A stretch of 64,000 nucleotides of DNA from Bacteroidota bacterium. GTDB taxonomy: Bacteria > Bacteroidota > Bacteroidia > Bacteroidales > UBA6013. Both the position numbers and the translations under genes were made by a program. The notes beneath the pieces are model-generated. The model saw only the letters and a list, made by a program, of their open reading frames with translations. It ran no database searches and was not told where the DNA came from. The stretch is from NCBI GenBank assembly GCA_020048645.1, contig JAIFMG010000041.1, forward strand, positions 1 to 64,000, given 5' to 3'. Below, one piece after another: positions 1,956-25,768 of this stretch (position 1 is the stretch's first letter; each line of letters starts with the position of its first letter).

Positions 1956-2828
1956 TCAGCGGGCCGAAATGAGCTCGACCTCGAAGACCAGCGTCGCGTA
2001 GGGCGGAATCACGCCCTCGACGCCCTCCTTGCCATAGGCCAGGAAAGAGGGAACGATGAGCGTGGCCTTCTGCCCCACGGCCAGTTTCGAGAAACCCTCC
2101 TCCCAGCCGTCGATCACCTCGCGGGCGCCGAGCCGGAAGCTGAAGGTCTCGGCGCGCCGCCGCGACGAGTCGAACACCACGCCGTCGAGGAAGCTGCCTT
2201 CGTAGTGGACTTCGAGCGTCTGCCCGGGCTTCGCCAGCGGTCCCTCGGCAGGCCCTTGCGGGATGAAGTACAATCCGCTCAGGCTTGGCTCCTGCTCTAT
2301 CTTCTTGAGGGCCAGGAACTCATCAATCAGGCGCATCTCCTCGGAGCGGAGCTGCTGCTCCTTGGCTCGGAGCTGCTCCTGGTACTCCTCCTGGGTCTGG
2401 CTGGCCAGCAGCTCGGCCCTGAAGAGCAGCGTGGAGCCAGCAGGCAGTTCGGGTGGCAAGGGCTGGCGGGCGTTGTGCCGGTAGAACGAATCGGCAGGAA
2501 CCCGGAAGAGGATGCTGTCGCCCACGCGCAGGAGCGCGAGTCCGGCATCGACGCTCGGGCCGGCGTGCTTGGGAGGCTCGAGCCGGAGGCGGAACAGGTC
2601 GGGCAGTTCGCGGGTCGAAAAGAGGGCCGGGCCGCCCTCGGGGCCGTACTCGAGCTTGAGGACCAGCACGTCGCCCGGCATGGGCTTGGGCGCGTTCTCG
2701 TCCGTGTGCCAGAGGCGGTACTCCAGCCCGGTCTCGGCGTCGGTGCGCCAGCGTTCGGAATCGTCGGACTGGCAGGCGGCCAAGGCGGCCAGGGCCAGTG
2801 GAAGCGAAAGGGAAATGAGCTTGCTCAT
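1956..2828 (-). CDS. FKBP-type peptidyl-prolyl cis-trans isomerase, lipoprotein
   Basis: Lipobox LAALAAC; C-terminal FKBP signature GQTLEVHYEGSFLDGVVFDSS...VIDGWEEG...IPPYATLVFEVEL. Start chosen at MSKLISL (2828). Confidence 0.85.
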   Translation of the reverse strand: MSKLISLSLPLALAALAACQSDDSERWRTDAETGLEYRLWHTDENAPKPMPGDVLVLKLEYGPEGGPALFSTRELPDLFRLRLEPPKHAGPSVDAGLALLRVGDSILFRVPADSFYRHNARQPLPPELPAGSTLLFRAELLASQTQEEYQEQLRAKEQQLRSEEMRLIDEFLALKKIEQEPSLSGLYFIPQGPAEGPLAKPGQTLEVHYEGSFLDGVVFDSSRRRAETFSFRLGAREVIDGWEEGFSKLAVGQKATLIVPSFLAYGKEGVEGVIPPYATLVFEVELISAR

Positions 2829-5800
2829 ATGCGGATGCCAATGACCAGGATGTCGTCCACCTGCTCCTGCTCGCCTCTCCATTCCTCGAAAATGTCGTCG
2901 AGGATCTTGCCTTGCACGGCCATGGGCAAGTGGTGGTTTTCGAGAATGACATCCCGGAAACGCTTGATTTTGAACTTTTTGCCCCTGCTGCCTCCAAACT
3001 GGTCCTGGTATCCGTCGGAGAAGATGTAAAAGACATCGCCGGTCTTGATATCGAACTCGTGGGTCGTGAAGGGATCCATGCGGTCATAAATGGCGATGGG
3101 CATCTTGTCGGGCTTGACGATTTCGAGCTCACCGTCGCGGATGAGGATCATGGGGTTGTTGGCGCCAGCGAAATAGAGCTTCATGGCCTCCATGTCCACG
3201 GTGCAGAGCGAGCCGTCCATGCCATCGCGGGCCTCGTTCTCGATGCCTTTCTGGTTGAGCGACTTGATGATGCTGTCGCGTAGGCGTCCGAGGATCTGGG
3301 TGGGGTTCTCGACGTCGGTCTCGTTGACGATACGGTTGAGGAAGCTGACTCCCAACATGCTCATGAATGCCCCGGGCACGCCGTGGCCGGTGCAGTCGGC
3401 CGCCAGGACGATGAGCTTTCGGTTCTCCTTGGCGGTGAACCAGTAGAAGTCGCCCGAGACGATGTCCTTGGGCTTGAACAGGACGAAGGACTCGCTGATG
3501 ATGTTGTCGGGGAAATGGTCGCTCAGGGTGGCGCGCTGTATCCTTCGGGCGTAGTGGATGCTGTCGAGGATTTCCTGGCGCTGGTGCTCGATCTGGTCGC
3601 GCTGGTTCTCGGCGATCATGCGCTGCTTCTCGACGGCGTCGCGCTGGGCCTCGATTTCGTCGCGCTGCTCCTCAATGGCGTCGCGCTGGGCCTCGATTTC
3701 CTCCTTCTGCTGCACCACTTCGGCCGTGCGCAGGCGGACTTCCTCTTCGAGGCGCTCCTTCTGCCGGCGCATCTTGGCCGTGCGGACCAGGTACCAGAAG
3801 TAGAGGCTGAGCAGAATGGCCAGCACGGCGCCGACCTTGGCCAGCGTCGTCTGCCACCAGGCCGGCTCGATGGTGATGTAGAGGCGGATGGGCTCCTTGC
3901 TCCACTTGCCGTCGTTGTTGGAGCCGAGCACCTCGAAGATGTACTCGCCCGGCGGCACCTGGTTGTAGGTGGCGAAGCGGCGCGTGCCCACGTTGTTCCA
4001 GTCCTGGTCGAGGTTGACCATGCGGTACTTGTACTGGTTCTTCGAGGGGAAGACGTAGTCCAGGGCCACGAAGTCGATCGAGATGACGTCCTGGTCGTGG
4101 TTCAGGACGATGTGGGTTTTCTCGCTGATGACGGTGTCGAGCTCGTTGTAAACGCGGTTGAGGACGCTGAAGCCTGTTATGACGACCTCGGGGGCGTGCT
4201 CGTTGTCGCGCATCTTGTCGGGGAAGAAGGCGTTGAAGCCGTTGATGCCGCCGAAGAGCATCTCGCCCTGCGCGGTCATGAAGTAGGACCCCACCAGGAA
4301 CTCGTTGCTCTGGAGGCCGTCGCGGACGTCGTAGTTGCGCACCTCGATGCTCGTCGGGTTGAGGAAGCGGCCGCGGCCGAGGGGGATGTTGCGGAGGGTG
4401 TCCACGACGACCTCGGTGGCGCGGAGGGTGTCGTAATGGACCTCGAACCTGCCCAGGCCCCGGTTCGTGCTGACCCAGAGCCGCCCGGCCCTGTCCTCTA
4501 GGACGCCCATGATGACATCGTTGGGCAGTCCGTCCTTCTCGTCGAAGGATTCGAAGGTGTTGTTGTGCTCGTTGAAGCGGTTGAGGCTTCCCTTGGTGCC
4601 GACCCAGATCCAGCCGCGGGAGTCCTCGAAGACCGAATAGACCCTGTCGTCGCCCATGGCGCCCGGCTGTCCGTTGGTGGGATACCTGTAAAAGCGCGGC
4701 CCGTCGCTGGGCGGATTCTTGAACATCTGCAGGCCGCCGCCGTAGGTGCCCACCCAGAAGCGCTTCTTGCTGTCCTCGAACAAAGTCGTTACGAAGTCGT
4801 TGGCCAGGTCAAACTGGCCTTGGCCTTGCCGGAACGCCTTGAAAGTCTGGCTGTTGTAATCGTAAAGGCAAAGCCCGCCTCCGAAGGTGGCCACCCAGAG
4901 GTTTCCGTTGGAATCCTCCTGCACGTCCCAGACGCGGTTGTTGGTCAGGCTTCCCGGCAGGTTCTCATCGTGCTTGAACACCTTGAAGGTGCCCTTTTGG
5001 CGGTCCATCAGGGCCAGGCCTCCGCCGTCGGTGGCCACCCAGAAGTTGCCGCGGCTGTCCTCGAACATGGCCCGGACGTGGTTGTTGGGCAGTGTGTTGG
5101 GCTTGGTGGGGTCGAAGCGGTATCTCCAGAACTGGTTCGTGCTCCGGTCCCAGCGGTTGAGGCCGGTCTCCACGGTTCCCACCCACATCTGGCCCTGCCG
5201 GTCCATGTAAATCGAGCGCACCTGGTTGGAGCTTAGGCTGTTCGGGTCGTAGGGGTTGTGCCGGAACAGGTCCAGGTCCTCGGCCGCGCGGCTCCACTTG
5301 TTGACCCCGCCGAGCGAGGTGCCCACCCAGAGCAGCCCGGCGCGATCCTGGAACAGGCAGTTGACATTGTCCACGCTGAGGCTGTTCGGGTCGGTGGGGT
5401 CGTTGCGGTAGGCCGCGAAGGTCTCCGCGGACGGGTCGAAACGGACCAGCCCCCCCCCTGCCGTGCCCAGCCAGAGGATTCCGTTGGCGTCCTTCTCGAT
5501 GGCGTTGATGGCGTCGTTGCTCAGCCGCGAGTTCTCGCGGGTGTAGAACTTCACCTTGGACATGCCGCTGATGCCCAACCTGAACTTCCGCAGGCCGTAG
5601 TCCGTGCCCAGCCAGAGCGTGTCGCCGTCGATAAGCAGCGTGTTGATCGTGTTGCTGCGGATGCCCAGCGAGTCGGTCTCCTTCGAGGTCCTGTACGAGA
5701 CGATCCCGCCCTGCACGATGTCAATGGCGTTGATGGCCGAGTCGGTGGCCACCCAGAGCTTGGTCATGCCTTGCGCGGCCATGTCGTTGATCTGGGTCAG

Positions 5801-6331
5801 GCGCCCGCCGACGCCCGAGACGAAGGTGCTGAAACGGATTCTCCCCGAGGGAGCCAGGGTGTCGAGCAGGCACAGGCCCGAGTCGGTGCCGAACCAGACG
5901 CCGCCCCGGCCGTCTTCGGCGATGGTGCGTATCTCGTTGCCGCAGAGGCTGCCCGGGTCAGCGGGATCGTGCTGGAAGCGAACGAACACGTCGTTGTAGC
6001 GGTCGTAGAGGCAAAGCCCGGCCCCGCGGGTGCCCACCCAAAGCCTCCGGGAGGCATCCTCATAGACCACCGTTATCGCGTTGTCGGATATGGTGTTTGG
6101 GTCATCGGGGTTGTTCCGGTAGGCCAGCACTTCGTAACCGTCGTACCGGTTCAGCCCATCCAAGGTCGCGAACCACATGAAGCCTCGGTAGTCTTGCTCG
6201 ATGCTGTAAACGTTGCTCTGGGACAAGCCTTGCTCCAACGAAATGTGATCGAATTTGATCCTGCTGTTTTGAGACCAGCCCCAAAGCGGAAGGGCCAGCG
6301 CCAAGGTCAAGAGCAAGTGGCTTTTTTTCAT
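2825..6331 (-). CDS. beta-propeller (reg_prop) / Y_Y_Y sensor with TM, coiled coil and C-terminal SpoIIE/PP2C-type phosphatase
   Basis: Start at MKKSHLLLTLALALPLWGWSQ (6331). Many LWVGT/FWVAT propeller repeats, a Y_Y_Y region, one TM, EAQRD coiled coil, and SpoIIE motifs FKPKDIVSGDFYW and DCTGHGVPGAFMSMLG. Confidence 0.88.
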   Translation of the reverse strand: MKKSHLLLTLALALPLWGWSQNSRIKFDHISLEQGLSQSNVYSIEQDYRGFMWFATLDGLNRYDGYEVLAYRNNPDDPNTISDNAITVVYEDASRRLWVGTRGAGLCLYDRYNDVFVRFQHDPADPGSLCGNEIRTIAEDGRGGVWFGTDSGLCLLDTLAPSGRIRFSTFVSGVGGRLTQINDMAAQGMTKLWVATDSAINAIDIVQGGIVSYRTSKETDSLGIRSNTINTLLIDGDTLWLGTDYGLRKFRLGISGMSKVKFYTRENSRLSNDAINAIEKDANGILWLGTAGGGLVRFDPSAETFAAYRNDPTDPNSLSVDNVNCLFQDRAGLLWVGTSLGGVNKWSRAAEDLDLFRHNPYDPNSLSSNQVRSIYMDRQGQMWVGTVETGLNRWDRSTNQFWRYRFDPTKPNTLPNNHVRAMFEDSRGNFWVATDGGGLALMDRQKGTFKVFKHDENLPGSLTNNRVWDVQEDSNGNLWVATFGGGLCLYDYNSQTFKAFRQGQGQFDLANDFVTTLFEDSKKRFWVGTYGGGLQMFKNPPSDGPRFYRYPTNGQPGAMGDDRVYSVFEDSRGWIWVGTKGSLNRFNEHNNTFESFDEKDGLPNDVIMGVLEDRAGRLWVSTNRGLGRFEVHYDTLRATEVVVDTLRNIPLGRGRFLNPTSIEVRNYDVRDGLQSNEFLVGSYFMTAQGEMLFGGINGFNAFFPDKMRDNEHAPEVVITGFSVLNRVYNELDTVISEKTHIVLNHDQDVISIDFVALDYVFPSKNQYKYRMVNLDQDWNNVGTRRFATYNQVPPGEYIFEVLGSNNDGKWSKEPIRLYITIEPAWWQTTLAKVGAVLAILLSLYFWYLVRTAKMRRQKERLEEEVRLRTAEVVQQKEEIEAQRDAIEEQRDEIEAQRDAVEKQRMIAENQRDQIEHQRQEILDSIHYARRIQRATLSDHFPDNIISESFVLFKPKDIVSGDFYWFTAKENRKLIVLAADCTGHGVPGAFMSMLGVSFLNRIVNETDVENPTQILGRLRDSIIKSLNQKGIENEARDGMDGSLCTVDMEAMKLYFAGANNPMILIRDGELEIVKPDKMPIAIYDRMDPFTTHEFDIKTGDVFYIFSDGYQDQFGGSRGKKFKIKRFRDVILENHHLPMAVQGKILDDIFEEWRGEQEQVDDILVIGIRI

Positions 6332-6743
6332 CGGACTTCTGGTGGGCTTGTTTGGTAGGTAAAAGTACAAAAAAATGCCCATCCCAATCTGGCCATACCC
6401 GTAGATTAAAACGCCTGGCCAGAGCTGGGCGCCGCTCGGGCTTTCCCGCCAGAAAGTCTTTCCGTCCGCCATGAGGCGATGCCTTCGGCCAGGGGCATCG
6501 GGGGCCGCCCGCTTGCCTTCGCAACAGGCTGGCCCTAAGGCACTCGAAACGGAATCGGGCAGTGCCCGCCCGCGCCTGCACGGGGCCAGGGCGAAAGCCT
6601 CGGAACAGGCTGCCGCGCCAATTTCCCAAGAACGCGGACCCCGGCCGCCTGGCCCTCCCAGGCGCAAGAAAACTGATTGGGCTTTTTGCTGGCCCGAGGC
6701 CTCCGCGCCGTCCCGGCCCAGCCCCGCCCGCGCCCTGTCCTCG

Positions 6744-7793: not shown

Positions 7794-8126
7794 TCAAAAC
7801 TCGGCGAGGGCGGCCTGGAGATTGTCGGTGATCGTGAAGATCGGGGTGAAGCCGGAGACCTCGAAGACCTCGTAGATCAGCTCGTTCATGCTGCAAAGGA
7901 CGAGCTTGCCCCCGATCTTGTTGAGGTGCTTGAGGAACATCAGGAAGACGCGGAGGCCGGAGCTGGCAACGAAGTCGAGGTTCTCGCAGTCGATGACCAC
8001 GTTCTTCTCCTTGCGGGAAGAGATCTCGGAGAACTTCTCCTGGAAAAGTTTCGAGCTGGCGGTATCCACTTTACCCACCAGTTCTATGATTGTGATTTCG
8101 CCTTCTTTTCTCTCTTTGATTTCCAT
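7794..8126 (-). CDS. STAS-domain anti-anti-sigma factor antagonist
   Basis: MEIKERKEGEITIIELVGKVDTASS...NVVIDCENLDFVASSGLRVFLMFLK; conserved phosphorylatable Ser context (ASSGLR). Confidence 0.88.
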   Translation of the reverse strand: MEIKERKEGEITIIELVGKVDTASSKLFQEKFSEISSRKEKNVVIDCENLDFVASSGLRVFLMFLKHLNKIGGKLVLCSMNELIYEVFEVSGFTPIFTITDNLQAALAEF

Positions 8127-8160: not shown

Positions 8161-8577
8161 TCAGAAAACTTTTTTGGAAAGCCGCACCACGTTCTTGCCG
8201 CGGACGCGTTCGTAATCAAATGAATCCATCATCTTCTTGACCAGATGGACGCCCAATCCGCCGATGGGCTTGCCATCCACGTCGAGGCTCAGGTCGGGGA
8301 CCGGGGCGTTGCGCGGGTCGTAGGCCTGGCCGTCGTCCGAGATCTGGACCAGGAGCCGGTCGCCGCTGAGGCTGAACTCGATCTCGATGAAGTGCTCCTT
8401 GTCGTCGGTGTAACCGTGGGTGATGACGTTGGTGATGAGTTCGTCCAAGGCCAGGTTGACCTTGTAAACGCTCCCGGGGTCCAGGCGGTTGTCCTCGCCA
8501 AACTCTTCGAACAGGTCGAGCACCGTGGTGACCTCGCTGATGTCGTTGACAATGGTTACCTTGAACTGCTTGCTCAT
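8161..8577 (-). CDS. RsbW-like anti-sigma/serine kinase ATPase (HATPase_c_2)
   Basis: LALDELITNVITHGY N-box, ISDDGQAYDP, GLGVHLVKKMMD. Confidence 0.88.
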   Translation of the reverse strand: MSKQFKVTIVNDISEVTTVLDLFEEFGEDNRLDPGSVYKVNLALDELITNVITHGYTDDKEHFIEIEFSLSGDRLLVQISDDGQAYDPRNAPVPDLSLDVDGKPIGGLGVHLVKKMMDSFDYERVRGKNVVRLSKKVF

Positions 8578-8613: not shown

Positions 8614-9768
8614 CTATCCTTTGAACTCGAAGCAGAGGATGGTGATGTCGTCCGACTGGTCGGCGCCGTTGGCGTGGCGGGCGACGTCCTCGGCCATGCC
8701 CTCCGAGACTTCCTTGGGGGACTTGCCCGCAAGCTCCTTGAGCTGGGCGCCCACCTTCTCGTCCGTGTAGATCTGGCTCTCCGGGTTCATGGCCTCGGGC
8801 ACCCCGTCGGTGTAGAGGAAGATCGTGTCCGTCGGCGAAAGCTGGACGCTCTTCAGGCCGTAGGGCATCCCGTCCATCACGCCCAGGGCCATGTTCTTGG
8901 TGGTGGGCAGCATCTCCACGCTTCCGTCCTTCCTGACCAGGTAGGGCGGGCAATGGCCGGCGTTCGAGTAGCGGAAAAGACCGGTCTTGAGGTTGAGGAT
9001 GCCGTAGAAGGCCGTCACGAACATCGAGTCGATGCTCTCCTCGCAGATCAGGTCGTTGGCCTCGGCCATGCAGAGCTCGGCGCTTTTGCCGTCCCGGCCC
9101 GTGGTCCGGATGATGGTCCGGCTCAGGGCCATGAAGATGGCCCCCGGCACGCCCTTGCCGGCCACGTCGCCGATCACGAAGCCGAAATGCTCGTCGTCGA
9201 TCTGGAAGAAGTCGTAGAGGTCGCCGCCCACGTCCTTGGCCGCCTTCATCATCCCGAACACCTCCAGGTCCGTGCGGTCGGGGAACTCGCTGGGAACGAG
9301 CGAGAGCTGGATGCTCTTGGCCACGTTCAGGTCCTGCTGTATCGACACGAGCTGGTCGCGCTGCCGGAGCGACTCCCGGATCTGCTGTATCTGCTCGATG
9401 GTCTTGTTGATGGTGATCTCCAGGTCCTTGAAGTCGATGGGCTTGTTCACGAAGTCGAACGCGCCCCGGTTCATGGCCGTGCGCAGGTTGTCCATGTCGC
9501 CATAGGCCGTGACCATCACCGTCTTGAGCTCCGGCCGGTTGAGCTCCTTGACGCGGTCCAGCAGGGTCAGCCCGTCCATCTCGGGCATGTTGATGTCCGA
9601 GAGGATGAAGTCGATGTCAGGGTGCTCGTTCAGGCGGTCCAGGGCCTGGTAGCCGTTGTTGGCAAAGACGAACTCATAAATCCCCTTGCGGATGTCCCGC
9701 CGGAACTTCTGCATGATGAGCAGCTCCAGGTCCGGTTCGTCGTCCACGCTCAATATCTTGATAGCCAT
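8614..9768 (-). CDS. response regulator with SpoIIE-type PP2C phosphatase output
   Basis: REC: ILSVDDEPDLELL...DFILSDINMPEMDGL...VMVTAYGDMDN...FVNKPIDF; SpoIIE: DVGGDLYDFFQID...GDVAGKGVPGAIFMAL. Confidence 0.92.
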   Translation of the reverse strand: MAIKILSVDDEPDLELLIMQKFRRDIRKGIYEFVFANNGYQALDRLNEHPDIDFILSDINMPEMDGLTLLDRVKELNRPELKTVMVTAYGDMDNLRTAMNRGAFDFVNKPIDFKDLEITINKTIEQIQQIRESLRQRDQLVSIQQDLNVAKSIQLSLVPSEFPDRTDLEVFGMMKAAKDVGGDLYDFFQIDDEHFGFVIGDVAGKGVPGAIFMALSRTIIRTTGRDGKSAELCMAEANDLICEESIDSMFVTAFYGILNLKTGLFRYSNAGHCPPYLVRKDGSVEMLPTTKNMALGVMDGMPYGLKSVQLSPTDTIFLYTDGVPEAMNPESQIYTDEKVGAQLKELAGKSPKEVSEGMAEDVARHANGADQSDDITILCFEFKG

Positions 9769-10716: not shown

Positions 10717-13700
10717 TTAGGATTCGTTTTCTTCGGTCTTGGGCTTGGCGATGGGGATGGACACCGTGAACCGGGCGAAGGCCCCGTCCTCGGACTCGAC
10801 CGCGATGGTCCCCTTGTGCTGCTTGACGATGTCGATGCCAGAATAGAGGCCCAGCCCGGTGCCCTCGGCCGTGGGCTTGGTCGTGAAGAGCGGGTCGAAG
10901 ATCTTCGGCAGGTTCTTCTCCGGGATGCCCAGCCCGTTGTCCTCGAAGCACAGCAGCAGCAGCTCGTCCTCGACCCTAAGGCTCACCCGGAGCCGGGCCG
11001 CGAAGCCCGCCCCCACCCGCTCCTGCTTCTTGGCCAGCGAGTAGATGGCGTTCCGGGCGATGTAGAGCAGCGCCTTGCCGAACTCCTCCGGAATCACGTT
11101 CACCGGGTCGAGCTCCTCCAGCTCGAAGGCCAGCTCGGGCTCGAATCCCCTGAACTGGTTCTGGCCCTCGGCAAGGGCCTGCTGGGCCGCCTCGCGGGCC
11201 ATGGCGCTCAGGTCGCTCGGGTAGAAGCGCGTCGGCTTGGCCTTCATCAGGGCCTCCATCTCCTTGATGATCCGCGTGGCCGTCACGCCGTGCTGGTTGA
11301 TCTTGACCAGGTTGCCGTTGATCATCTCGATCACCTCCACCTGCTCCTCCAGCAGGTCCTGGCCTTCCGAGGCGTCCTCGCCCAAGGCCTCCCTGGTCTC
11401 CGCGATGATGTCCTTGAGCTCCTGGGTCAGCTCGGTCGAGACTTCCGAGAAGTTGTTGATGTAGTTCAGCGGGTTGATGATGCGGTCCACGATGCCCTGG
11501 GTCAACTGCCCGATGGACGCCATCTTCTCCTTGCGGACCAGCTCCTCCTGCGTCTCGCGCAGGTTGATCAGGGTCATCTGGAGGTCCTCCAGGATCTGCG
11601 TCTTGATGAAGGCCGAGACCAGGTGCTCCTTGAGGTTCCGCAGCAGCGAGAAGGCCTCGCTGCTGAAGGCGTCCTCGCTCTCGGGGTTGTCCAGCACGAT
11701 GAAGCCCTCGATCTGGTCCTTGTTGTCGGGCACGTTGATCAGGATGACCACCCGCGAGTGGGCGCCCACGAAGGCCGGGTGGCCGCCCCCCGCGCCGAGC
11801 TTGGCCCGGTAGCGGATGCTCTCGTCAAGCGCTTCGGTGCCGCCGATCAGCTCGGCGTGCGTCTCCTCCACGCTCAGGGGCTTCAGTTGCTCGTCGCTCA
11901 TCTCGAAGCCGAACTTGGCCGCGAACTCGTACAGGTGCGTCTGCTTGTTCAGCAAGACCGCGTAGCAGTGCTCGGCGCCCTTGATCTGGTGCAGTTTCGA
12001 AAGGATCGAGCGCATCAGGCTCGTGAAGTTGACCTCCTCGTTGATCGACTGCACGATGATGTCGATCTGCTCGAGCTGGATGTTCTTCTGGGCCAGCTCC
12101 GAGGCCTGCTTCTCGATCTCCTCCTTCTGGCTCTCCACGGCCTGCTTCTGCTTGGCGATCTCGTCGCGCTGCTGCACGATCTCGGCCGTCCGCTCGCGCA
12201 CGATCTTCTCGAGCTGCTGCTTCTCCTTGACCAGCCGCCGCGAGTTCAGCTTCACCACGCCGATCACCAGAAGCACCAGGCTGACCAGGTAGAGCAGGTA
12301 GGCCAACACCGTGCGGTAGTACGGCGGGCGGATCCGGAAGGTGAAGCTGGCCACCCGGCTCTCCTGGCCGTGGATGTTCCGCGCCTTGACCTGGAAGACG
12401 TAGGTGCCCTCGAACAGGTTCGTGAACTCCTTCTTGGTCTCCTTGGTCCATGGCGACCACTGGTTGTCGTAGTTCTTCAGGCGCACGCTGAACTCCGTGG
12501 CCTCGATTCCCTCGAAGTAGGGCGAGGCGAACTCGAACACCAGCGTGTTGTGCGCGTAGTCCACCTCGAAGACCAGGTCGTCGGGCTGCTTGTTCCAGGC
12601 CACCGAAAGTGTGTCGTTGAGCGGATGCTCCAGCGCGAAGGTGCCATGGAACAGCACCGAGTCGCGGCCCGCCTGCACCCGGTGGATCACCGCCAGGAAA
12701 TCCTGGTCGAGCTTCGGCTCGATCCGGTCCAGCACCGCGTAGTCGAAGCTGTAGAGCACGGCGCCCCGGGCCAGCCACAGCTTCAGCTCGCTGTCGATGA
12801 ACAGGTCCATCGTCTCGCCATTCGGCAGGCGCCGGTAGGGGACGCTGTCCACCTCGAAGCCCCCGCCGGGCCTGGCGCTGATGCGCTCCACCCAGTAGCG
12901 GTTGCCCCGGTAGATGATGCCCACGATGGCCTCCTGGTCGGGCATCTTCACGAACTTGAGCACGCCCGCCTGCTTGCTGTCGAAATAGGCCGAGAAGACC
13001 GGGTGCGGCACGAACGAGCGGCTCTCCGCGTCGAAGATGAACATCCCCGCCTCGCTGCAGGCCACCAGCTCGCCCTCCAGCTCGCCCAGCTCCAGGCCGT
13101 TGATGCTGCGCAGACCGCTCGTGGCGTCGTAGATGTCCACCAGGGTGTCCTGCCCTTCCACCCGGATGTTCACCAGCCCGTTGTTCTTGGTGCTGAGCCA
13201 GAAGTCGCCCGGGCCCGCGAGGTGGATGTCCCTGAACTCCAGGTTCTCGTTCTCGTAGATCTTGGTCTTGGAAAGGCTCCCCGCCTCCACGTCGAACCGC
13301 AGGAACTGGCCCCGGCAGGCGGCGTAGAGCTGGCCAGGGCCGGCCGCTGTCAGCGCGTAGATGGGCGGCACCCCAGGCAGGGTCGAGCGGGCCGAGTTGC
13401 TGGCCGCGTCCAGCTCGAAAAGCCCCCCGTTGTTGGCGATGAACGTCCGCTGCCCGCCCTCGACTTCCACCTGGGCGAAGCACCACGACTGGTCGCCGAT
13501 GCCCTGCACCTTGTCGAAGATAGGCCCGCCGGCCGTATAGCGCAGCCGGTGCGCCCCCAGCACCGTGGTGATGTAGATCGTCGAGTCGATCTCGGTGATG
13601 CTGTAAACCGTCTCGCTGAGCTTGTAAATCTCGTCGTAGATCGAGAAGGGCGAGAGGAACTCCAGGCTCACGATGCCCGTGTTCAGCGAAAGCCAAAGCA

Positions 13701-14637
13701 CGTTCTTGCCCGAGGAGGAGCTGGAGTTGTAGCTGTGTATCACGATGGGGTCCGGCAGGCGGGCCGAGATGTGCCGCACCAGCTCGCCCTCGGGGTTGAT
13801 CTCGAAGAAGCCGTTGCCCAGCGTGCCGAAGCCGAAGTTCCCGTTGACCAGGGCCACCGCGTTGTAGATCGCCCCGTCGCGGTTGATGCCCGGGGCCGTC
13901 GTCTCGAAATAGGTGGCCGAGACGCTGTCCATGACGCTCAGGTCGTATAGGTACAGGCCATGCAGGCGCGTGGCCACCAGAACGCGGCTCTCGTCATAGG
14001 GCAGGATCCCGAAGATGTCCTTCTCCACGAAGACGTTCTTCTGCGGCACCAGGACGCGGTGGTCGGCTGTCAGCTCGCAGATCCCGTTCGCGTAGTTGCC
14101 GATGAAGTAGCGCCCGTTGGCCACGAAGTTGATGAAGCTCGACGGAGGCGTCTCCAGCACCTCGATGCCCTTGTAGTCATAGACGAAGATGCGGCTCGGC
14201 GTGTTGAAATAGACCTTCCCGTTCCAAACGTTGGTGCGCAGCACCTGCGAGAAGGCCCTGTGCTCCTCCGCCTCGATCAGCCCCACGAGCGACTGGTAGC
14301 GCAACTGGCCCTTCGCGTCGGGCTTCAGGTAGCCGAACTCGCCCGCCGCGCCCACGAAGATGGTCCCGGCGCTGTCGCGCTGGATCGAGAACACTATCGA
14401 GCCGTTGTCGATCGGTATCTGCTTCCAATGCGTGCCATCGAACTGGAGCACGGCGCCCTCTACACCAAAGTGCATCACCCCGCGGTTGTCCTCGACGGCG
14501 CACCAGACCTGGGCCGGGCCGTCGTAGTCTTCGGGTGTGTAAACATGCGTCAGCGGATCACCCGTATGGTTGGCTTGCGAAAAGGCCCATTGCCCTGGAA
14601 CAAGCCATGCTAGCAGCATCAACAGTCTGATTCTCAT
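10717..14637 (-). CDS. propeller/Y_Y_Y transmembrane sensor with GAF-like region and histidine-kinase-like C-terminus lacking the phospho-acceptor His
   Basis: Signal peptide, propeller repeats, Y_Y_Y, TM (VLAYLLYLVSLVLLVIGVV), coiled coil, MASIGQLTQGIVDRIINPLNYINNFSE, DNGLGIP, GTGLGLYSGIDIVKQHKG. Confidence 0.85.
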   Translation of the reverse strand: MRIRLLMLLAWLVPGQWAFSQANHTGDPLTHVYTPEDYDGPAQVWCAVEDNRGVMHFGVEGAVLQFDGTHWKQIPIDNGSIVFSIQRDSAGTIFVGAAGEFGYLKPDAKGQLRYQSLVGLIEAEEHRAFSQVLRTNVWNGKVYFNTPSRIFVYDYKGIEVLETPPSSFINFVANGRYFIGNYANGICELTADHRVLVPQKNVFVEKDIFGILPYDESRVLVATRLHGLYLYDLSVMDSVSATYFETTAPGINRDGAIYNAVALVNGNFGFGTLGNGFFEINPEGELVRHISARLPDPIVIHSYNSSSSSGKNVLWLSLNTGIVSLEFLSPFSIYDEIYKLSETVYSITEIDSTIYITTVLGAHRLRYTAGGPIFDKVQGIGDQSWCFAQVEVEGGQRTFIANNGGLFELDAASNSARSTLPGVPPIYALTAAGPGQLYAACRGQFLRFDVEAGSLSKTKIYENENLEFRDIHLAGPGDFWLSTKNNGLVNIRVEGQDTLVDIYDATSGLRSINGLELGELEGELVACSEAGMFIFDAESRSFVPHPVFSAYFDSKQAGVLKFVKMPDQEAIVGIIYRGNRYWVERISARPGGGFEVDSVPYRRLPNGETMDLFIDSELKLWLARGAVLYSFDYAVLDRIEPKLDQDFLAVIHRVQAGRDSVLFHGTFALEHPLNDTLSVAWNKQPDDLVFEVDYAHNTLVFEFASPYFEGIEATEFSVRLKNYDNQWSPWTKETKKEFTNLFEGTYVFQVKARNIHGQESRVASFTFRIRPPYYRTVLAYLLYLVSLVLLVIGVVKLNSRRLVKEKQQLEKIVRERTAEIVQQRDEIAKQKQAVESQKEEIEKQASELAQKNIQLEQIDIIVQSINEEVNFTSLMRSILSKLHQIKGAEHCYAVLLNKQTHLYEFAAKFGFEMSDEQLKPLSVEETHAELIGGTEALDESIRYRAKLGAGGGHPAFVGAHSRVVILINVPDNKDQIEGFIVLDNPESEDAFSSEAFSLLRNLKEHLVSAFIKTQILEDLQMTLINLRETQEELVRKEKMASIGQLTQGIVDRIINPLNYINNFSEVSTELTQELKDIIAETREALGEDASEGQDLLEEQVEVIEMINGNLVKINQHGVTATRIIKEMEALMKAKPTRFYPSDLSAMAREAAQQALAEGQNQFRGFEPELAFELEELDPVNVIPEEFGKALLYIARNAIYSLAKKQERVGAGFAARLRVSLRVEDELLLLCFEDNGLGIPEKNLPKIFDPLFTTKPTAEGTGLGLYSGIDIVKQHKGTIAVESEDGAFARFTVSIPIAKPKTEENES

Positions 14638-14829: not shown

Positions 14830-16002
14830 TCAAGGAACGAAAATCTTCCGGACCACGCTGCCCTGGGTCGTGCCCACCCGCAGGAGGTACCAGTTGCTCA
14901 CCGCGTTGATCTGCTCGTAGCCGATGTTCATCGTCTGGTCGCCGGCCCGCTGGCTGTACATGACCTGGCCCAGGAGGTTGATCACCTCGAGCCGCTCGAT
15001 TCGGTTGCCCTGCGCCACGCTGATGTAGAGGCCGCGGTCGTCCTGGAGGACTTCCAGCGGGAAGGAGTTCGACTCGACCACTTCCACGAAGGTCATGAAG
15101 TCGCTCTCGCCGGCGGTGAAATCGCCCAGGGCCGAGACCGCGCCCATGAAGCTGCCCGCGGAGGCCTGGTTGAGCAGCTCCCACTGGTTGCCGTCCCAGC
15201 GCCCGCCGAACAGCGAGCTTTCCGTGCCGGCCACGTCAGCGGCCGAGTAGTTGAAGGTCAGGTTGCTGCTGAAGCTGCTCACGCCCTCGGCGCCCACGAC
15301 CCAGTAGCGGTTCAGGAAGTTGGTCTGGCTCTCGTTCTCCGGATGCTTCTGGTTGACCACGCGGGCCGAGATCTGGCCCTGGCCGAACGAGGCCTGGCCG
15401 AAGACCAGCTCGAAGGGCGAGTAGTCGGCGCCATTGTCCATGTCGCCAATCGGGAAGAGGTACTCGACGCCCACGGCATCCACCCCGCGGACCATCATGC
15501 CCTGCCCGTCGGCGCCCACCATGTTGCCCGGGCCGAAGCCCGTGCCGCTGGAAAGGCTCGCGGTTGGGCCGAGCACCAAGTGGTTGTCCCCCAAGACGAT
15601 GACCCCTGCGTCCATGACCAGGCTCTTGTCAATCCGCACGCTCTGCTCCAGGACAACGCCCGCGGCGTTGTTGGTGCGCAGGCCCGGGATGCCCAGCTCC
15701 GCCACCCCCGAGAGGGTCTGCTGCTCCTGCCCGTCGAGCACCAGGTGCCCCGTGCTCGCCGCCGCGATGGCATCGCCGGCAGCCGAGTTGTCGGTCCAGT
15801 CGCCCGATACGAACATCTGGCCATCGACACGCAGCGAACCGCTGTTGTGGACATAGTGCCCCGTGGCCTGTCCGCCCAGCACGAGCACCTGCGCCATTTC
15901 GGGGATCACGATGTGCGCCCCATTGTTGATGACCCCTTGCGCGTTGGCGCCCAGGGCCAGGGCAATGCCCGCGGCGCCTAGCGCCATTGTTTTCGTTTTC
16001 AT
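14830..16002 (-). CDS. secreted protein with T9SS type A C-terminal sorting domain
   Basis: Signal peptide; C-terminus IERLEVINLLGQVMYSQRAGDQTMNIGYEQ...NWYLLRVGTTQGSVVRKIFVP is a Por-type CTD. Confidence 0.85.
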   Translation of the reverse strand: MKTKTMALGAAGIALALGANAQGVINNGAHIVIPEMAQVLVLGGQATGHYVHNSGSLRVDGQMFVSGDWTDNSAAGDAIAAASTGHLVLDGQEQQTLSGVAELGIPGLRTNNAAGVVLEQSVRIDKSLVMDAGVIVLGDNHLVLGPTASLSSGTGFGPGNMVGADGQGMMVRGVDAVGVEYLFPIGDMDNGADYSPFELVFGQASFGQGQISARVVNQKHPENESQTNFLNRYWVVGAEGVSSFSSNLTFNYSAADVAGTESSLFGGRWDGNQWELLNQASAGSFMGAVSALGDFTAGESDFMTFVEVVESNSFPLEVLQDDRGLYISVAQGNRIERLEVINLLGQVMYSQRAGDQTMNIGYEQINAVSNWYLLRVGTTQGSVVRKIFVP

Positions 16003-16023
16003 ATCACGTTCGGTTTAAAGTTT

Positions 16024-18753
16024 TCAATTGATGTCAACCCAGTCCATGCCGTTGAAATAGCGTAGCGTGCAGGTGCCGTCGAAGTTGTCCTGCATGTACA
16101 AGTCGCCCATCGAGGGCAGAATCGGCTCCGAATCCATCGGCTCCAGCCGCATGGCCGAGCTGATGTGCAGCTTCCGCTCCGGATTCCGCACACCCACGCC
16201 CAGCGCGCCCGTGTTCGGCGCGACAAAGACGCCCAAGTCCTCATTCAGGTTGGGATCCGTGTAGAACTGGTATCCGCCCGCGGCCCGCACCACGAACTCG
16301 TTCGGGCCCGAGCTGCTCACGGGCGTGCCCGCGTTCGAGTTGTCCCCGAACACGATCGAGCCGTCGCCGATGCTCTGGGCGTTCGTGCCGAAAGCCATCG
16401 TCCGGTAGCCGAAGGAAGTAACCCCCTCGTTGCCAATGGCGAAGGCGCCCTCGCCTTCCGCCACCGCGTAGGTGCCCAGCGCGAAAGAGTTGTCGCCCTG
16501 CGCGTAGGCGTTGAAGCCGATGGCGAACGCGCTGGAGCCGTAAATGACGCCGCCGCCCGTCATCGTCGGGTCGTAGATCGTCGGGTTGCCGCCCGCGTAG
16601 GCGAACTTGCCCAGGGCCACCGAGCCGTCGCCCAGCGCGTAGGCGTTCTCGCCAATGGCGAACGAGCCTTGCCCCTCGGAGACAGAACCGAAGCCGATCG
16701 AGTAGGAGTTCTGGCCGCGGGCCGAGGCCTGCTGGCCGATCGCGAACGAGCCGATGCCCGTGGCGTAGGCGCTGAAGCCAATGGCCACCGAGTTGGCGCT
16801 GAAGGTCTTGCCGGGCAACACCTTGCCATCCTTGTCGATGTCCGTCTGGTCGCCCCCCGCGAAGGCGGACTGGCCAATGGCAACCGAGCCAAGCCCCAAG
16901 GCGTAAGACTCGCCGCCCAAGGCCAAGGCGCCCCGTCCCTGCGCCGTCGAGCCCATGCCGTAGGCATAGGAGTTCTCGCCCCGGGCCGAGGCCCCCATGC
17001 CGATGGCGAAGGACGACAGGCCCGTGGCGTAGGAGCTGTTGCCAATGGCCACCGAGTTGGCGCTGAAGGTCGCCGTAGGGTCGATCACGTTGCCCGACCC
17101 GTCGATGGCAGTCTGGTCGCCGCCCGCGTAGGCGAACTGGCCGAGCGCCAGCGAGCCGAAGCCCAGCGCGAAGGCCGAGTTGCCAATGGCGAACGAGCCG
17201 TCGCCGTGCGCCAGCGAGTTGTAGCCGATCGAGTAGGCGTCCGTGCCAATGGCCGAGGAGCTTTCGCCAATGGCCAAGGACCCCAGCCCGTCGGCGGAGG
17301 CGCTGGCGCCCAGCGCGTAAGAGTTCGGACCATTGGTCACCGCGCCGATGCCCAGCGCGAAGCTCTGCGTCCCCTCCGCGGAGGCGTAGCGCCCGAAGGC
17401 GAAGCTGTTGTCTTCGTGCGTTACGGCACCGTCGCCAATGGCCACCGAAGAGGCGCCCAGGGCCTCGGCCTCGTAGCCGATGGCCGTCGAGTAGTCCCCG
17501 ATGGCACGCGGCCGGTAGCCGAAGGCCTGCGAGTAGTCGCCCATGGCCAGCGCGTGGTAGCCCGTGCCCATGGAGTTGGTGCCCACCGAGTCGGCGCCGC
17601 CGATCTGGACCCGGCCCACCCGGAAGGCCTCGCGGTTCGGGTACCAGAGCATCCGGGGCTCGTCGAGGACCACCTCGGCCGCCGTCGCTCCCGAGACCAG
17701 GAAGGCCTGCTCGGCCTCGCCCTCTTTGGCGGCCGTGTAGCCGCCCACGGCGAATCCGCCCGCGCCCGCCTTGCTCGAGTTGTCAGGGTAATAGACCCGG
17801 GTGCTGTCGGGCGTGACCCGCAGGTACTCGCGCGAGCCGAACTTCGAGGCGCCGTAGCCGCCCACGGCGAAGCCGCCCGCGCCCGCCTTGGCTTCCGACT
17901 CGGGCACATAGACCCGCGTGCTGTCGGGCGTCACGAAAAGGATGTTGTTGATGCCTGCCTTCGCGGCCGAGTAGCCGCCCACGGCGAAGCCGCCCGCGCC
18001 CGCCTTGGCGGCGTCGTCGGGCACGTAAACCCGGGTGCTATCGGGCGTCACGAACAGGAAGTTGCTCATGCCCGCCTTCGAGGCGCCATAGCCGCCCACG
18101 GCGAAGCCGCCCGCGCCCGCCTTGTCGGCCGCGTCGGGCACATACACGCGCGTGCTGTCGCGGGTGACCCGGAAGATCTCCTCGTCCGTGTTCAGGCTCG
18201 CGACCGAGAAGCCGCCCCAGCCGGTGGTCGGTGCCTCCTCGACGAAGACCCGCACCCCTTCGGGATAGACGGCGAAGACGGTCTGGCCCTCGCTGTTCTT
18301 GACCTCGAAGAGCGGGTCGTTCGGCCCGCTGGCGCCGTTGCCTTGCACGGCCAGCTTGCCCCCGGGGCTGTTGGTGCCCAGGCCGACGTTCTGGTCAGGG
18401 TTGGTCAGGAAGACCGAGCTGGAGCTGGCCTGCCAGAGGTTGTCGCCCGTGGAGGGCAAGGCCAGGTTGGTCCAGATTGTGCCGTTGTAGAAGAAGAAGC
18501 TGCCCAGGTCGGTGTCGAAGACCAGCAGGCCGGTGGCCGGGTTCGCGATGGCTACCCGCTGGGTCGAGCTTACCCTCGGCACCAGGATGCCCCTCTCGGT
18601 GGAGGAAATATCCAGCATCGCGGAGGGGTCGGGGGTCTGCCCCGGGACGTCCGAGATGCCGACGCTCTGCGCCATGGCCGCCCCTCCCACCAGGGAAAGG
18701 AGACCCAAGCTGGCCAGCGTCCGTTTCAATCCTTTGTTGATGATGTTTCGCAT
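16024..18753 (-). CDS. YadA-head-like (Hep_Hag) 14-residue repeat surface protein
   Basis: Signal peptide; ISDVPGQTPDPSAMLDISSTERGILVPR; more than 20 14-residue SVAIGxxAYAxGxxS repeats; no YadA anchor or T9SS CTD recognised. Confidence 0.82.
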   Translation of the reverse strand: MRNIINKGLKRTLASLGLLSLVGGAAMAQSVGISDVPGQTPDPSAMLDISSTERGILVPRVSSTQRVAIANPATGLLVFDTDLGSFFFYNGTIWTNLALPSTGDNLWQASSSSVFLTNPDQNVGLGTNSPGGKLAVQGNGASGPNDPLFEVKNSEGQTVFAVYPEGVRVFVEEAPTTGWGGFSVASLNTDEEIFRVTRDSTRVYVPDAADKAGAGGFAVGGYGASKAGMSNFLFVTPDSTRVYVPDDAAKAGAGGFAVGGYSAAKAGINNILFVTPDSTRVYVPESEAKAGAGGFAVGGYGASKFGSREYLRVTPDSTRVYYPDNSSKAGAGGFAVGGYTAAKEGEAEQAFLVSGATAAEVVLDEPRMLWYPNREAFRVGRVQIGGADSVGTNSMGTGYHALAMGDYSQAFGYRPRAIGDYSTAIGYEAEALGASSVAIGDGAVTHEDNSFAFGRYASAEGTQSFALGIGAVTNGPNSYALGASASADGLGSLAIGESSSAIGTDAYSIGYNSLAHGDGSFAIGNSAFALGFGSLALGQFAYAGGDQTAIDGSGNVIDPTATFSANSVAIGNSSYATGLSSFAIGMGASARGENSYAYGMGSTAQGRGALALGGESYALGLGSVAIGQSAFAGGDQTDIDKDGKVLPGKTFSANSVAIGFSAYATGIGSFAIGQQASARGQNSYSIGFGSVSEGQGSFAIGENAYALGDGSVALGKFAYAGGNPTIYDPTMTGGGVIYGSSAFAIGFNAYAQGDNSFALGTYAVAEGEGAFAIGNEGVTSFGYRTMAFGTNAQSIGDGSIVFGDNSNAGTPVSSSGPNEFVVRAAGGYQFYTDPNLNEDLGVFVAPNTGALGVGVRNPERKLHISSAMRLEPMDSEPILPSMGDLYMQDNFDGTCTLRYFNGMDWVDIN
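17700..18190 (-). repeat. about 117-bp in-frame tandem repeats (about 39 aa, roughly 4 copies)
   Basis: (F/L)VTPDSTRVYVPDxAxKAGAGGFAVGGYxAxKAGxxN repeated, spacing about 117 bp. Confidence 0.85.
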
Positions 18754-22603: not shown

Positions 22604-25600
22604 CTAGTACGACGCGGCCACGCTCAGCTCGGGCCTGGACAGCATCGCGAGGAAACTCTTGGTAACTTCGACGTTGGAGTTGAGCAGGTCATAGAGCGAG
22701 ACCGTGGGGATGGCCATCAGCAGGCAGTCCTCGACGGCGCGCAGCTCGACCTGCTGGCGCCGCAGGGCGGGGGCGGTAAGCTCGCCCAGCAGCTCGGACG
22801 CGGCCCAGCGCGAGGGGACCTCGGGCACCGAAAGGCTCAGCCGGCCTTCGCAGACCAGCAGGAAGTCCTTGTCGGGGTCGAGCCGGAACTCCTGCCCGGC
22901 CGAGAGCCGGATAGGCTTGCAGGAGAAGGCCAGGCCGACGAGCAAGCTCTGGTGCAGGCTGCTGAAAAAGCGGTTCTGCCGAAGCAGCTCGATGCGGAGC
23001 CAGATGCCGACCCGCTGCGGATCTTTGCTGTAATTGAGGAACTTGCGCAAGAAGAGGGCCTCGGGCGGATACTTGAGCTCCACGTCGGCCAGCAGGCCCT
23101 CGAGGCTGCCTGGCCAGCGCGACAGCAAGACCTGGCAGGAGACCTCGCGGAGCAGCATGTTCGGGTGCAGGGCCAGCCCGCGCAGCAGCGACTGGGCCTC
23201 GGGGTCGGCCTGCTTCTCGAGCTCGAGCACGGCGCAGGCCTTGGTCCAGACCCGCAGGGTCGAGAAGTCGCGCATGAGCAGCTCCTTCAGGCGCGCCTGC
23301 ACGGGGTGACGCCGCTGCGGGAACAGGTTCTCGTAGGCCTTGACGGCCAAGGGCATCTCGGTGTTCTCGACCATGGGCACCACCAGGGCCTTGAGGTCTT
23401 CGGTGAGCACCATTTCCAGGATCTCGAGCGCGTAGTTGCGGTCCTCGCCCTCCGAGCTGAGCGACTCCTGCAAGGTGGCCATGGTCTGGTTGTCGTAGAG
23501 GCATCCCAGGAGCTGGAAGATCTTCTCCTGCGAGCTGCGCCGCTCGATCTCGAGGGCGTCCACCAGCCGCGGGTGCGAGACGGGGTCAAGGTCGATGCTG
23601 GTGGCCAGGAGCCAGACGTGGTGCTCGACCTGCTTTTCGACAAGGCCCTTGAAGAAGTTGGCGTTCTTCTCCGAGACCTTGTAGCCGAACAGGTGCAAAG
23701 CCCGCAGGACGTTGGCCTTGACCTTCAGCGAACTGTTGGTCAGCTTGTTGGCCAGCAGCTCCAGCTTGTCCTCCTCGATGATGGTCTCCATGGCCTTGAC
23801 CACGCGGAACTGTCGGTGCGGCTCGTCCATCTTCTTCTGGAAGTAGTTGTCGAGCCCGGGCAGGATGGGCGGGCCGATCTTGCGGATGGCAGAGGCGGCC
23901 AGGGTGGCCGTCTCGATGCTGGAAAGCGAGTTGACCACGAAGGCGTTGAGCTCCTTGCGGCGGATCTTCCCGGCCGAGACCAGGGCCTGCTCGCGGACCT
24001 GGCCGTTGTCGTCCTGCATGAGCGAGAGCAGGAGCCGGATGGCCTTGAACCGCCCCGTGTAGCCCAGCAGACGGGCCGCCTCGAGCCGCAGGGCCCAGTC
24101 GGCCTCGCCGCACATCCGGGCCAGGTCCTTCATCCGGCGGCGGCTCTTCTCTTCGAGGAACTCGCACAAGGCGCCGGCCTCGGACCCGTCCTCGCGGGAG
24201 GCCAGCCCGCGCAGGGTCGGGATGGCCGACAGGACCAGCCGCTCGCGCACGAGCGCCAGCAGCCGCCCGCGGAGGTCCGGGCGCAGGCCCAGCAGCTCCG
24301 TCAGGATGTCGCCCATGTGGGCAGGCTCAAGCCGCTCGACCAGCAGCAGCAGGTGCGCAAACTCCTCCGGCTCCGCCTCCGCCAGCCGAAGCCGAAGCGC
24401 CGCCAAGTTCGTATTCGAAAGCTCCTCCTCGTTCTTGAGGCTCTTGTTCTGCTTGATGGTCTCCAGGTTCGCCTGGAGGCGCATCTTGTACTCCTTGGCC
24501 ATTTTCAAGCTCTGCGGAACCCAGAACAGCAGCATGGCCAGCAGGATGACGTTGAAGTGGATGAGGCTCATGCCCGGCAGGAAGCCCAGCAGCAGCAGCA
24601 AGACCCCGGCGGCCACGCCCCCGAAGGCCTTGGGGCCCGACTCCATGAAGTTCTGCATGGCCACGCGGTCCTCCTTGGGCAGGGGCTGGAACAGCACCTG
24701 GAAGGCCGGATCGTAGAAGCTCGTGCGCAAGACCCTGAAAAACAGCTTGGTCATGGAAACAAAACCCAGGAACACAATGGCCGTGCCGAAGAAAAAACCG
24801 GAAAAAATCGCCAGGGCCACGCTCAGGCCCGAGATGAAAGGCAGCGAGGCCAGGCCGAAGCGGAGGCCGTAGCGGCTCAGCAGCTTGCCCGAGAGGAAGG
24901 TCTTCATCAGGAACTCCACGAAGGTGTTGAAGCCGAAGAACAGCGCGATGAAAACCGACAGCACCTGCGCCTCCGAAAACTGGTCCTTCAGGTTGACCAT
25001 GAAGATGAAGTCCACGAAGAAGTTGCCGAACATCGGCAGCAGGGACACCCAGAAGAAGGTGCGGAAATAAGGCTCGCGGAACAGCTCGCGCATGCTCTTG
25101 CCCACCGGCTTGCCGTCCTCGCCCAAGGCGGCCCCCTTGGGCGCGGGCTTCTGCGAAAGCCTCTCGCGGAAGCGCGCCACGATGGCCATCATCAGCACGA
25201 TGCAGACGGCCATGGCCCCGAAGCTGATCAGCATGACCTGCTCGGTGCTGATGTAGCGCAGCAGGATGGGCACCGAAAAGAAGCTCAGCATCGAGGCGAG
25301 CACCTCGCCCGTGCCAATCAGCCCGAAAAGCCGCTTGCCCTGCCGAAGGTCGAACACCTTGCCCGCCACGCCCCAGAAGGTCAGCGCCTGCACGAAGACG
25401 ATTACCCGCATCCAGACGAACATCAAGAACGCCAGCCACTTGTTGCCCGTGGCCATGTAGCCCAAGACCATCAGCAGGATGCTCGCCGCCAGAAAGACCA
25501 CCCCAGCCACCGAGAACACCGAGAAAGGCAGCTTCTGCTGGACCTTGCTGACCCCCTTGCCCAGGCCGAACAGGAAGAGGCCCCCGATCACATAAGCCAG

Positions 25601-25768
25601 CGGGATCGCGCCCCGCTCGAACTCCAGCAGGAACAAGCTCGTGGAAGAAGTGTAGAAGAATGCCGTGGCCGCACCTATGAAGAACGAGAAGGCCACCAGC
25701 TCCACGAGCTGCTTGCCCTCGCCCTTGCGAAGGTTGAACATGCGTTGGAACCACGAGCTCTTGGCCAT
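22604..25768 (-). CDS. NTT/Npt-like multi-TM transporter fused to HEAT repeats and a C-terminal cyclic-nucleotide-binding-like domain
   Basis: N-terminal about 400 aa with about 12 TMs (FFIGAATAFFYTSSTSLFLLEF...), then HEAT-like helices (LEAARLLGYTGRFKAIRLLLSLMQDDNGQVREQALVSAG), then LSAGQEFRLDPDKDFLLVCEGRLSLS..., cNMP-like beta roll. Confidence 0.75.
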   Translation of the reverse strand: MAKSSWFQRMFNLRKGEGKQLVELVAFSFFIGAATAFFYTSSTSLFLLEFERGAIPLAYVIGGLFLFGLGKGVSKVQQKLPFSVFSVAGVVFLAASILLMVLGYMATGNKWLAFLMFVWMRVIVFVQALTFWGVAGKVFDLRQGKRLFGLIGTGEVLASMLSFFSVPILLRYISTEQVMLISFGAMAVCIVLMMAIVARFRERLSQKPAPKGAALGEDGKPVGKSMRELFREPYFRTFFWVSLLPMFGNFFVDFIFMVNLKDQFSEAQVLSVFIALFFGFNTFVEFLMKTFLSGKLLSRYGLRFGLASLPFISGLSVALAIFSGFFFGTAIVFLGFVSMTKLFFRVLRTSFYDPAFQVLFQPLPKEDRVAMQNFMESGPKAFGGVAAGVLLLLLGFLPGMSLIHFNVILLAMLLFWVPQSLKMAKEYKMRLQANLETIKQNKSLKNEEELSNTNLAALRLRLAEAEPEEFAHLLLLVERLEPAHMGDILTELLGLRPDLRGRLLALVRERLVLSAIPTLRGLASREDGSEAGALCEFLEEKSRRRMKDLARMCGEADWALRLEAARLLGYTGRFKAIRLLLSLMQDDNGQVREQALVSAGKIRRKELNAFVVNSLSSIETATLAASAIRKIGPPILPGLDNYFQKKMDEPHRQFRVVKAMETIIEEDKLELLANKLTNSSLKVKANVLRALHLFGYKVSEKNANFFKGLVEKQVEHHVWLLATSIDLDPVSHPRLVDALEIERRSSQEKIFQLLGCLYDNQTMATLQESLSSEGEDRNYALEILEMVLTEDLKALVVPMVENTEMPLAVKAYENLFPQRRHPVQARLKELLMRDFSTLRVWTKACAVLELEKQADPEAQSLLRGLALHPNMLLREVSCQVLLSRWPGSLEGLLADVELKYPPEALFLRKFLNYSKDPQRVGIWLRIELLRQNRFFSSLHQSLLVGLAFSCKPIRLSAGQEFRLDPDKDFLLVCEGRLSLSVPEVPSRWAASELLGELTAPALRRQQVELRAVEDCLLMAIPTVSLYDLLNSNVEVTKSFLAMLSRPELSVAASY

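Follow-up and report, generated by a model that had tools for sequence, protein, structure and literature searches.

The window, a stretch of 64,000 nucleotides, carries on its minus strand a five-gene operon in the order pHK1, sHK, receiver–SpoIIE, RsbW-like, and STAS (Table 1). The first gene encodes a histidine kinase-like protein whose H-box has lost its phospho-acceptor histidine, and the second encodes a short kinase that retains it.

Table 1. Features of the operon, of pHK1, and of the related genes in the same genome.
Feature	Position	Strand	Basis or remarks
pHK1, pseudo-histidine kinase, 1306 aa	10717..14637	-	propeller/Y_Y_Y, TM, coiled coil, GAF-like, DHp without His, CA
pHK1, Val-Asp-Arg replacing Ala/Ile-His-Glu of the H-box	11482..11490	-	codons and alignment
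pHK1, extracytoplasmic propeller and Y_Y_Y sensor region	12322..14637	-	Y_Y_Y match and homology; domain end approximate
pHK1, GAF-like domain	11686..11970	-	AF2 topology, model residues 94-188; predicted assignment
pHK1, DHp-like helical hairpin with preceding coiled coil	11245..11661	-	alignment, AF2 model, structural matches
pHK1, CA (ATP-binding) lobe	10753..11223	-	HATPase_c match; conserved N/G1/G2 boxes
sHK, soluble sensorless histidine kinase, 284 aa	9845..10699	-	probable GTG start; His at residue 33; HisKA above cut-off
RR-PP2C, receiver domain fused to SpoIIE/PP2C phosphatase	8614..9768	-	Pfam
RsbW-like HATPase_c_2 protein, serine/threonine kinase by homology	8161..8577	-	domain searches
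STAS anti-sigma-factor-antagonist-like protein	7794..8126	-	domain searches
pHK2, second propeller pseudokinase (GLVDRVINPLNYIVNFS), 1246 aa	18839..22579	-	ORF, Pfam, sensor identity
MFS-like/HEAT-repeat membrane protein, directly upstream of pHK2	22604..25768	-	same gene precedes propeller pHKs and intact HKs elsewhere
Third pHK of the window genome (G000:C147)	L061 8917-11946	-	TPR repeats replace propeller

Anatomy of pHK1 and its neighbourhood

The pHK1 reading frame runs uninterrupted from 14637 to 10717 (1306 codons). Its minus-strand codons at the H-box are GTG (11490-11488, Val), GAC (11487-11485, Asp), and CGC (11484-11482, Arg), exactly as the earlier note had read them, and the description given there of a pseudo-histidine kinase holds, as neither the His nor the Glu beside it is present and the ATP lobe is retained. 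Measured against a canonical HisKA kinase, pHK lacks the H-box His and keeps the N, G1, and G2 boxes, with the first Asn of the N-box mostly lost. Pfam searches matched HATPase_c (1.6e-14) and Y_Y_Y in pHK1, gave no match for the GAF-like domain, and found HisKA in neither pHK1 nor pHK2; an NCBIfam search of pHK and sHK returned generic kinase matches only, all below cut-off. A transmembrane segment can be read from the pHK1 sequence, and a propeller is predicted in the sensor region from homology to proteins with Reg_prop matches (25-27% identity to intact propeller kinases over ~815 aa).

In the AF2 model of pHK1 (mean pLDDT 80), a coiled coil leads to a GAF-like fold, and a DHp-like hairpin and the CA lobe follow; at a pTM of 0.45 the domains are loosely placed relative to one another, and trust is limited to the individual folds. 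The structural matches of the model are DHp–CA structures of histidine kinases, such as ZraS (9jfj), and include the DivL structure (4q20, E 4.9e-12).

The PP2C phosphatase, the HATPase_c_2 protein, and the STAS protein together give the window operon the content of an Rsb partner switch. HATPase_c_2 occurs in the window genome in one strong, short RsbW-like protein, which is that of the operon, and as one domain in a 333 aa frame. The window-type five-gene operon is complete at four other loci (L070, L071, L072, and L156), and the alternative order STAS–RsbW–pHK–sHK–RR-PP2C is found at L162 and L165. RR-PP2C usually follows pHK/sHK, and the RsbW-like and STAS genes are present in several genomes. 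Just downstream of the operon, positions 2825-6667 (minus strand) encode a propeller (Reg_prop) and Y_Y_Y sensor fused to a SpoIIE phosphatase, which may feed directly into the same partner switch as a second input. Between the pHK1 and pHK2 genes (14830-18753, minus strand) lie a gene for a protein with YadA-head repeats (16024-18753) and one for a 390 aa protein whose end resembles a sorting signal (14830-16002).

Conservation of the Asp-Arg substitution

The Asp-Arg pair is common to pHK1, two paralogues in the same genome, and 18 proteins from other Bacteroidota-type genomes, in a comparison set where the window genome is the sole member of its family. The TPR-bearing paralogue has no adjacent sHK, RR-PP2C, RsbW, or STAS gene on its contig. 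A scan of public genomes found the motif on six named contigs, whose records carry the labels Bacteroidales, Draconibacterium, Chlorobiota, Owenweeksia (two), and Roseivirga. As a degenerate DNA pattern, the motif matched at least 9 of the 393 genomes from the order and at least 3 of the 396 from the phylum, both counts including the window genome and both being lower bounds, since relatives with NPI or NPM (G104, G035) escape the pattern; the reversed-pattern control gave zero matches in every genome listed. The motif is rare but scattered. The earlier note had proposed a profile search over the DHp variant; such a profile (A2), which scores the whole domain, returned both HE and DR members, including the DR proteins of G104 and G035. 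Ignavibacteriales/Bacteroidetes records (L073-L076) show 28-30% identity to the pHK profile and have an H-box outside the searched motif.

In an alignment of 21 pHKs, 15 sHKs, and 50 other kinases, the His position is occupied by Asp in 21/21 pHKs and by His in all sHKs (15/15) and other kinases (50/50), and the following residue is Arg in 21/21 pHKs and Glu in the remainder (15/15 and 50/50). The Asn at +4 and the Pro after it are kept in all three groups, and the receiver-docking stretch NPLNYxNF is mostly invariant in the 21 pHKs. In the ATP lobe, which the earlier note had described as kept, the second N-box Asn, the G1 DxGxG, and the G2 GxGL are invariant (21/21), and the first N-box Asn is retained in just 6 of the 21. 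The lobe probably still binds nucleotide. Helix 2 has changed: in place of the Arg that is invariant in kinases two residues past the HG pair, pHKs have Asn, Ser, Thr, or Val; GML has become xME, and HSR has become LLK.

The Asn four residues after His is the usual phosphatase residue in HisKA kinases, and its invariance in the pHKs (21/21), together with that of most of the docking stretch, would also be consistent with a phosphatase or a receiver-binding role. pHK might accordingly be pictured as a phosphatase that is under signal control and dedicated to the RR-PP2C receiver, and sHK as a constitutive kinase, the two activities of a bifunctional enzyme being divided with no hetero-oligomers. 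We consider this arrangement unlikely, because the neighbouring Glu has been replaced by Arg, helix 2 carries the changes R to S/N, L to E, and HSR to LLK, and the Asn belongs to the NPL motif, where it may be retained for shape. Phosphorylation of the Asp itself, or of another helix residue, instead of His is hard to credit: the strict conservation of the Asp, with no drift, speaks for it, but the Glu-to-Arg change does away with the acidic residue normally found next to the His, and every genome checked has a partner whose His is intact.

Across the pHKs, the Asp is encoded by two codons and the Arg by six, indicating that the residues, not the DNA, are conserved. Loss of catalytic residues alone would fit a decaying pseudogene or a sequencing error, the latter already thought unlikely in the earlier note. 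The full-length reading frame, the recurrence of the same two residues in the two paralogues and in 21/21 aligned proteins, the varied codons, and the single well-supported clade rule this explanation out, leaving it a negligible probability. That clade has a branch support of 100/100 in a tree built with motif columns 27-32 removed; membership of the pHK class is set by Asp-Arg itself, and the tree is blind to those columns. Repeated independent loss of the His is unsupported, given the single clade recovered in this way.

The sensorless partner kinase and the two operon states

The probable GTG start of sHK lies 17 bases past the pHK1 stop codon, and the protein matches HisKA (29.6 bits; cut-off 26.9) and HATPase_c, in agreement with the earlier note, which saw in the next gene a real kinase. 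The description as a neighbour falls short, as sHK is a conserved sensorless partner. Only one genome was available to that note, so the clade, the pairing, and the unsplit operon described below were invisible to it. sHKs are 280-326 aa long with the His intact, and in 15 sHKs only 28-57 residues separate the first likely start from the His, which leaves sHK without a sensor. The losses are complementary: propeller and TPR pHKs keep large sensors, and sHKs keep the His.

A short sHK is present in 13/13 examined genomes with a pHK. Among 295 genomes of the order, the best-scoring short matches to the sHK profile (E <= 2e-114) are confined to pHK genomes, a co-occurrence test biased towards these genomes because the profile (A3) was built from their sHKs; other matches of that strength are full-length sensor kinases. 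A lower-scoring 301 aa kinase of a different clade lies beside RR-PP2C and a STAS-containing protein in a non-pHK genome (G099). The pHK and sHK distance matrices are correlated (r=0.86, permutation p=0.0001, 15 pairs); this shows co-inheritance, and contact is not proven by the correlation alone. sHK is most often the gene next to pHK, the two adjoining directly in the window and at L070, L071, L072, L153-L157, L161, L162, L163, and L165. Some pHKs are distant from sHK (in G016, G035, and G740, and two of the three in both G338 and the window genome), so the two genes are not always neighbours. The ratio of pHK to sHK is 3:1 in the window genome and in G338, and 2:1 in G679; this excess fits several inputs feeding one kinase. 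Fragments resembling the pHK CA lobe adjoin the sHK of G016 in several frames near a contig end (L152 5635-6357, minus strand), reflecting decay or an assembly error.

Two states of the operon were found. The unsplit state has the order MFS/HEAT, propeller HK (HE), RR-PP2C, RsbW, and STAS (L208 and L214, in genomes G082 and G666), with no sHK at that place. The same order from the kinase onward is seen at a contig end in G578 (L215), and G074 and G661 have the first three genes, MFS/HEAT, intact propeller kinase, and RR-PP2C. In the split state, the order is instead MFS/HEAT, propeller pHK (DR), sHK (HE), and RR-PP2C (L155, L157, and L161, in G144, G338, and G567); in G089, it ends past sHK at a contig end. 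The sensors of intact and Asp-version kinases share 36-42% identity over about 750-800 aa (G089, G144, G338, and G567), and the sensor parts of the window pHKs share 25-34% with those of intact propeller kinases. By length and sequence, the two sets of sensors are orthologous. A sensor pseudokinase and a sensorless kinase thus appear, from these gene orders, to have taken the place of a single kinase. The simplest history would be that a duplicated kinase divided into a sensor copy without the His and a His copy without the sensor; since the tree of pHKs, sHKs, and HE kinases is unrooted, we infer the order of these events. Chance neighbourhood of pHK and sHK is ruled out by the split and unsplit operons and by the co-occurrence in 13/13 genomes.

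Two other proteins accompany the propeller kinases. An MFS-like/HEAT protein of ~1000 aa precedes them, whether they have His or Asp, in the window and at L154, L155, L157, L161, L164, L166, and L207-L214, and the two together could possibly constitute a transporter-coupled sensor. Between the kinase gene or genes and RR-PP2C, several genomes of both operon states encode a protein of ~200 aa whose N-terminus looks signal-like and which is possibly an outer-membrane barrel (L155 7427-8038, L207 9672-10307, L212, L213, L214, and L215).

The split operons also bear on the idea that the ATP lobe of pHK works as an ATPase, or as a Ser/Thr kinase that targets the STAS protein or something else directly. 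The lobe residues are intact and the window operon includes STAS and RsbW-type proteins, but an RsbW-like protein is already there, L155, L157, and L161 have no STAS gene near the pHK, and the CA lobe is of the HATPase_c type found in histidine kinases. Such an activity seems highly improbable.

A proposed two-protein histidine kinase and related systems

At the level of genome comparison, the pairing of pHK with sHK is established. Together, the complementary losses, the pairing, and the unsplit operon suggest that pHK is likely the sensor half and sHK the phosphorylating half. We therefore favour, with a probability of roughly 60%, a reading in which pHK and sHK make up a two-protein histidine kinase: pHK, the sensor subunit, would control sHK, and sHK would phosphorylate RR-PP2C. 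We infer that the two are in physical contact, which of them controls the other, that phosphate passes between proteins, and that a partner switch lies downstream. pHK would contribute the extracytoplasmic sensor, the GAF-like domain, a DHp pair without phospho-acceptor, and an ATP lobe, and sHK, which has no sensor, the phospho-acceptor His together with an ATP lobe of its own. A signal reaching the DHp/CA region of pHK would pass to sHK most simply through DHp–DHp pairing in a hetero-oligomer, because both proteins keep the helix pair, and would switch sHK autophosphorylation on or off. Phosphorylated sHK would then phosphorylate the receiver–PP2C protein, whose phosphatase would act on the STAS protein and set the RsbW/STAS partner switch. 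A fuller version is held tentatively, at rather less than even odds: sensor pseudokinase–sHK heterodimers would form a natural two-subunit kinase through which several receptor types share one kinase and one partner switch, with the pHK ATP lobe possibly phosphorylating the partner His in trans.

DivL of Caulobacter is the best functional analogue, and pHK would be DivL-like in principle. DivL is a pseudo-histidine kinase that binds a receiver through an intact DHp–CA region and works without kinase activity (PMC4211667). Like pHK, it combines a histidine kinase fold and ATP boxes with a replaced phospho-acceptor His, and it works with a separate active kinase (PMC4211667). pHK would probably do so with sHK, to which its genomic pairing is strong. 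The two pseudokinases differ at the His position (Tyr in DivL, Asp-Arg in pHKs with Asp in 21/21), in input (PAS versus propeller/Y_Y_Y, GAF-like, or TPR), in partner (CckA is a sensor hybrid kinase, while sHK has no sensor), and in output (CtrA relay versus receiver–PP2C with RsbW/STAS). The receiver binding of DivL, the match of the pHK1 model to its structure, and the conserved docking stretch raise the alternative of a pHK that senses the phosphorylated state of the receiver and acts back on sHK, in the way that DivL recognises DivK~P and regulates CckA. Most pHKs, however, have large sensors of their own, orthologous to those of intact kinases, for which forward sensing by the sensor subunit is simpler, and such feedback is decidedly unlikely.

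Other systems share single features with the pair. In split histidine kinases (PMC3591291), such as Hik36–Hik43 of Synechocystis (PMC7656254), two proteins do the job of one kinase. Hik36–Hik43 is called a split kinase, is of CheA type, and has the HPT divided from the dimer, CA, and receiver domains (PMC7656254), whereas pHK and sHK both keep DHp and CA and divide sensor from phospho-acceptor. A split kinase has its ATP domain and phospho-acceptor on separate proteins, whereas sHK has both the His and HATPase_c. The Bacteroidota propeller/HisKA kinases of the HE[IV]xNPLNF[VI]NNF group have an orthologous sensor and the same domain order and operon, but keep the His and have no adjoining sHK. 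In the interacting sensor kinase pairs of Pseudomonas (PMC5992135), one HK-like protein regulates another; GacS–RetS is an example. These pairs differ from pHK/sHK in belonging to other families, in having other outputs, and in that each partner has its own sensor. Rsb-type modules, such as HsbR–HsbA of P. aeruginosa (PMC6482189), likewise contain receiver–PP2C, RsbW-like, and STAS proteins, but the input to the window module is the pHK/sHK pair. ChrS is a laboratory-evolved pseudokinase variant with a damaged ATP lobe (PMC9491836). A literature search that covered few subscription papers returned mainly DivL for pseudo-histidine kinases and nothing for heterodimeric histidine kinases, which is weak evidence. 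A conserved sensor-pseudokinase clade paired with sensorless kinases is absent from the DivL, ChrS, and Hik36–Hik43 accounts, and priority cannot be claimed.

Histidine pseudokinases are known mostly as single cases, such as DivL. The pHKs are a whole clade in which the loss of the His has been kept; every genome checked has a complementary partner without a sensor, and the unsplit operon survives in related genomes. The split and unsplit operons offer a before-and-after comparison for the separation of sensing from phosphorylation and for the way in which signals from several receptors might converge on one kinase.
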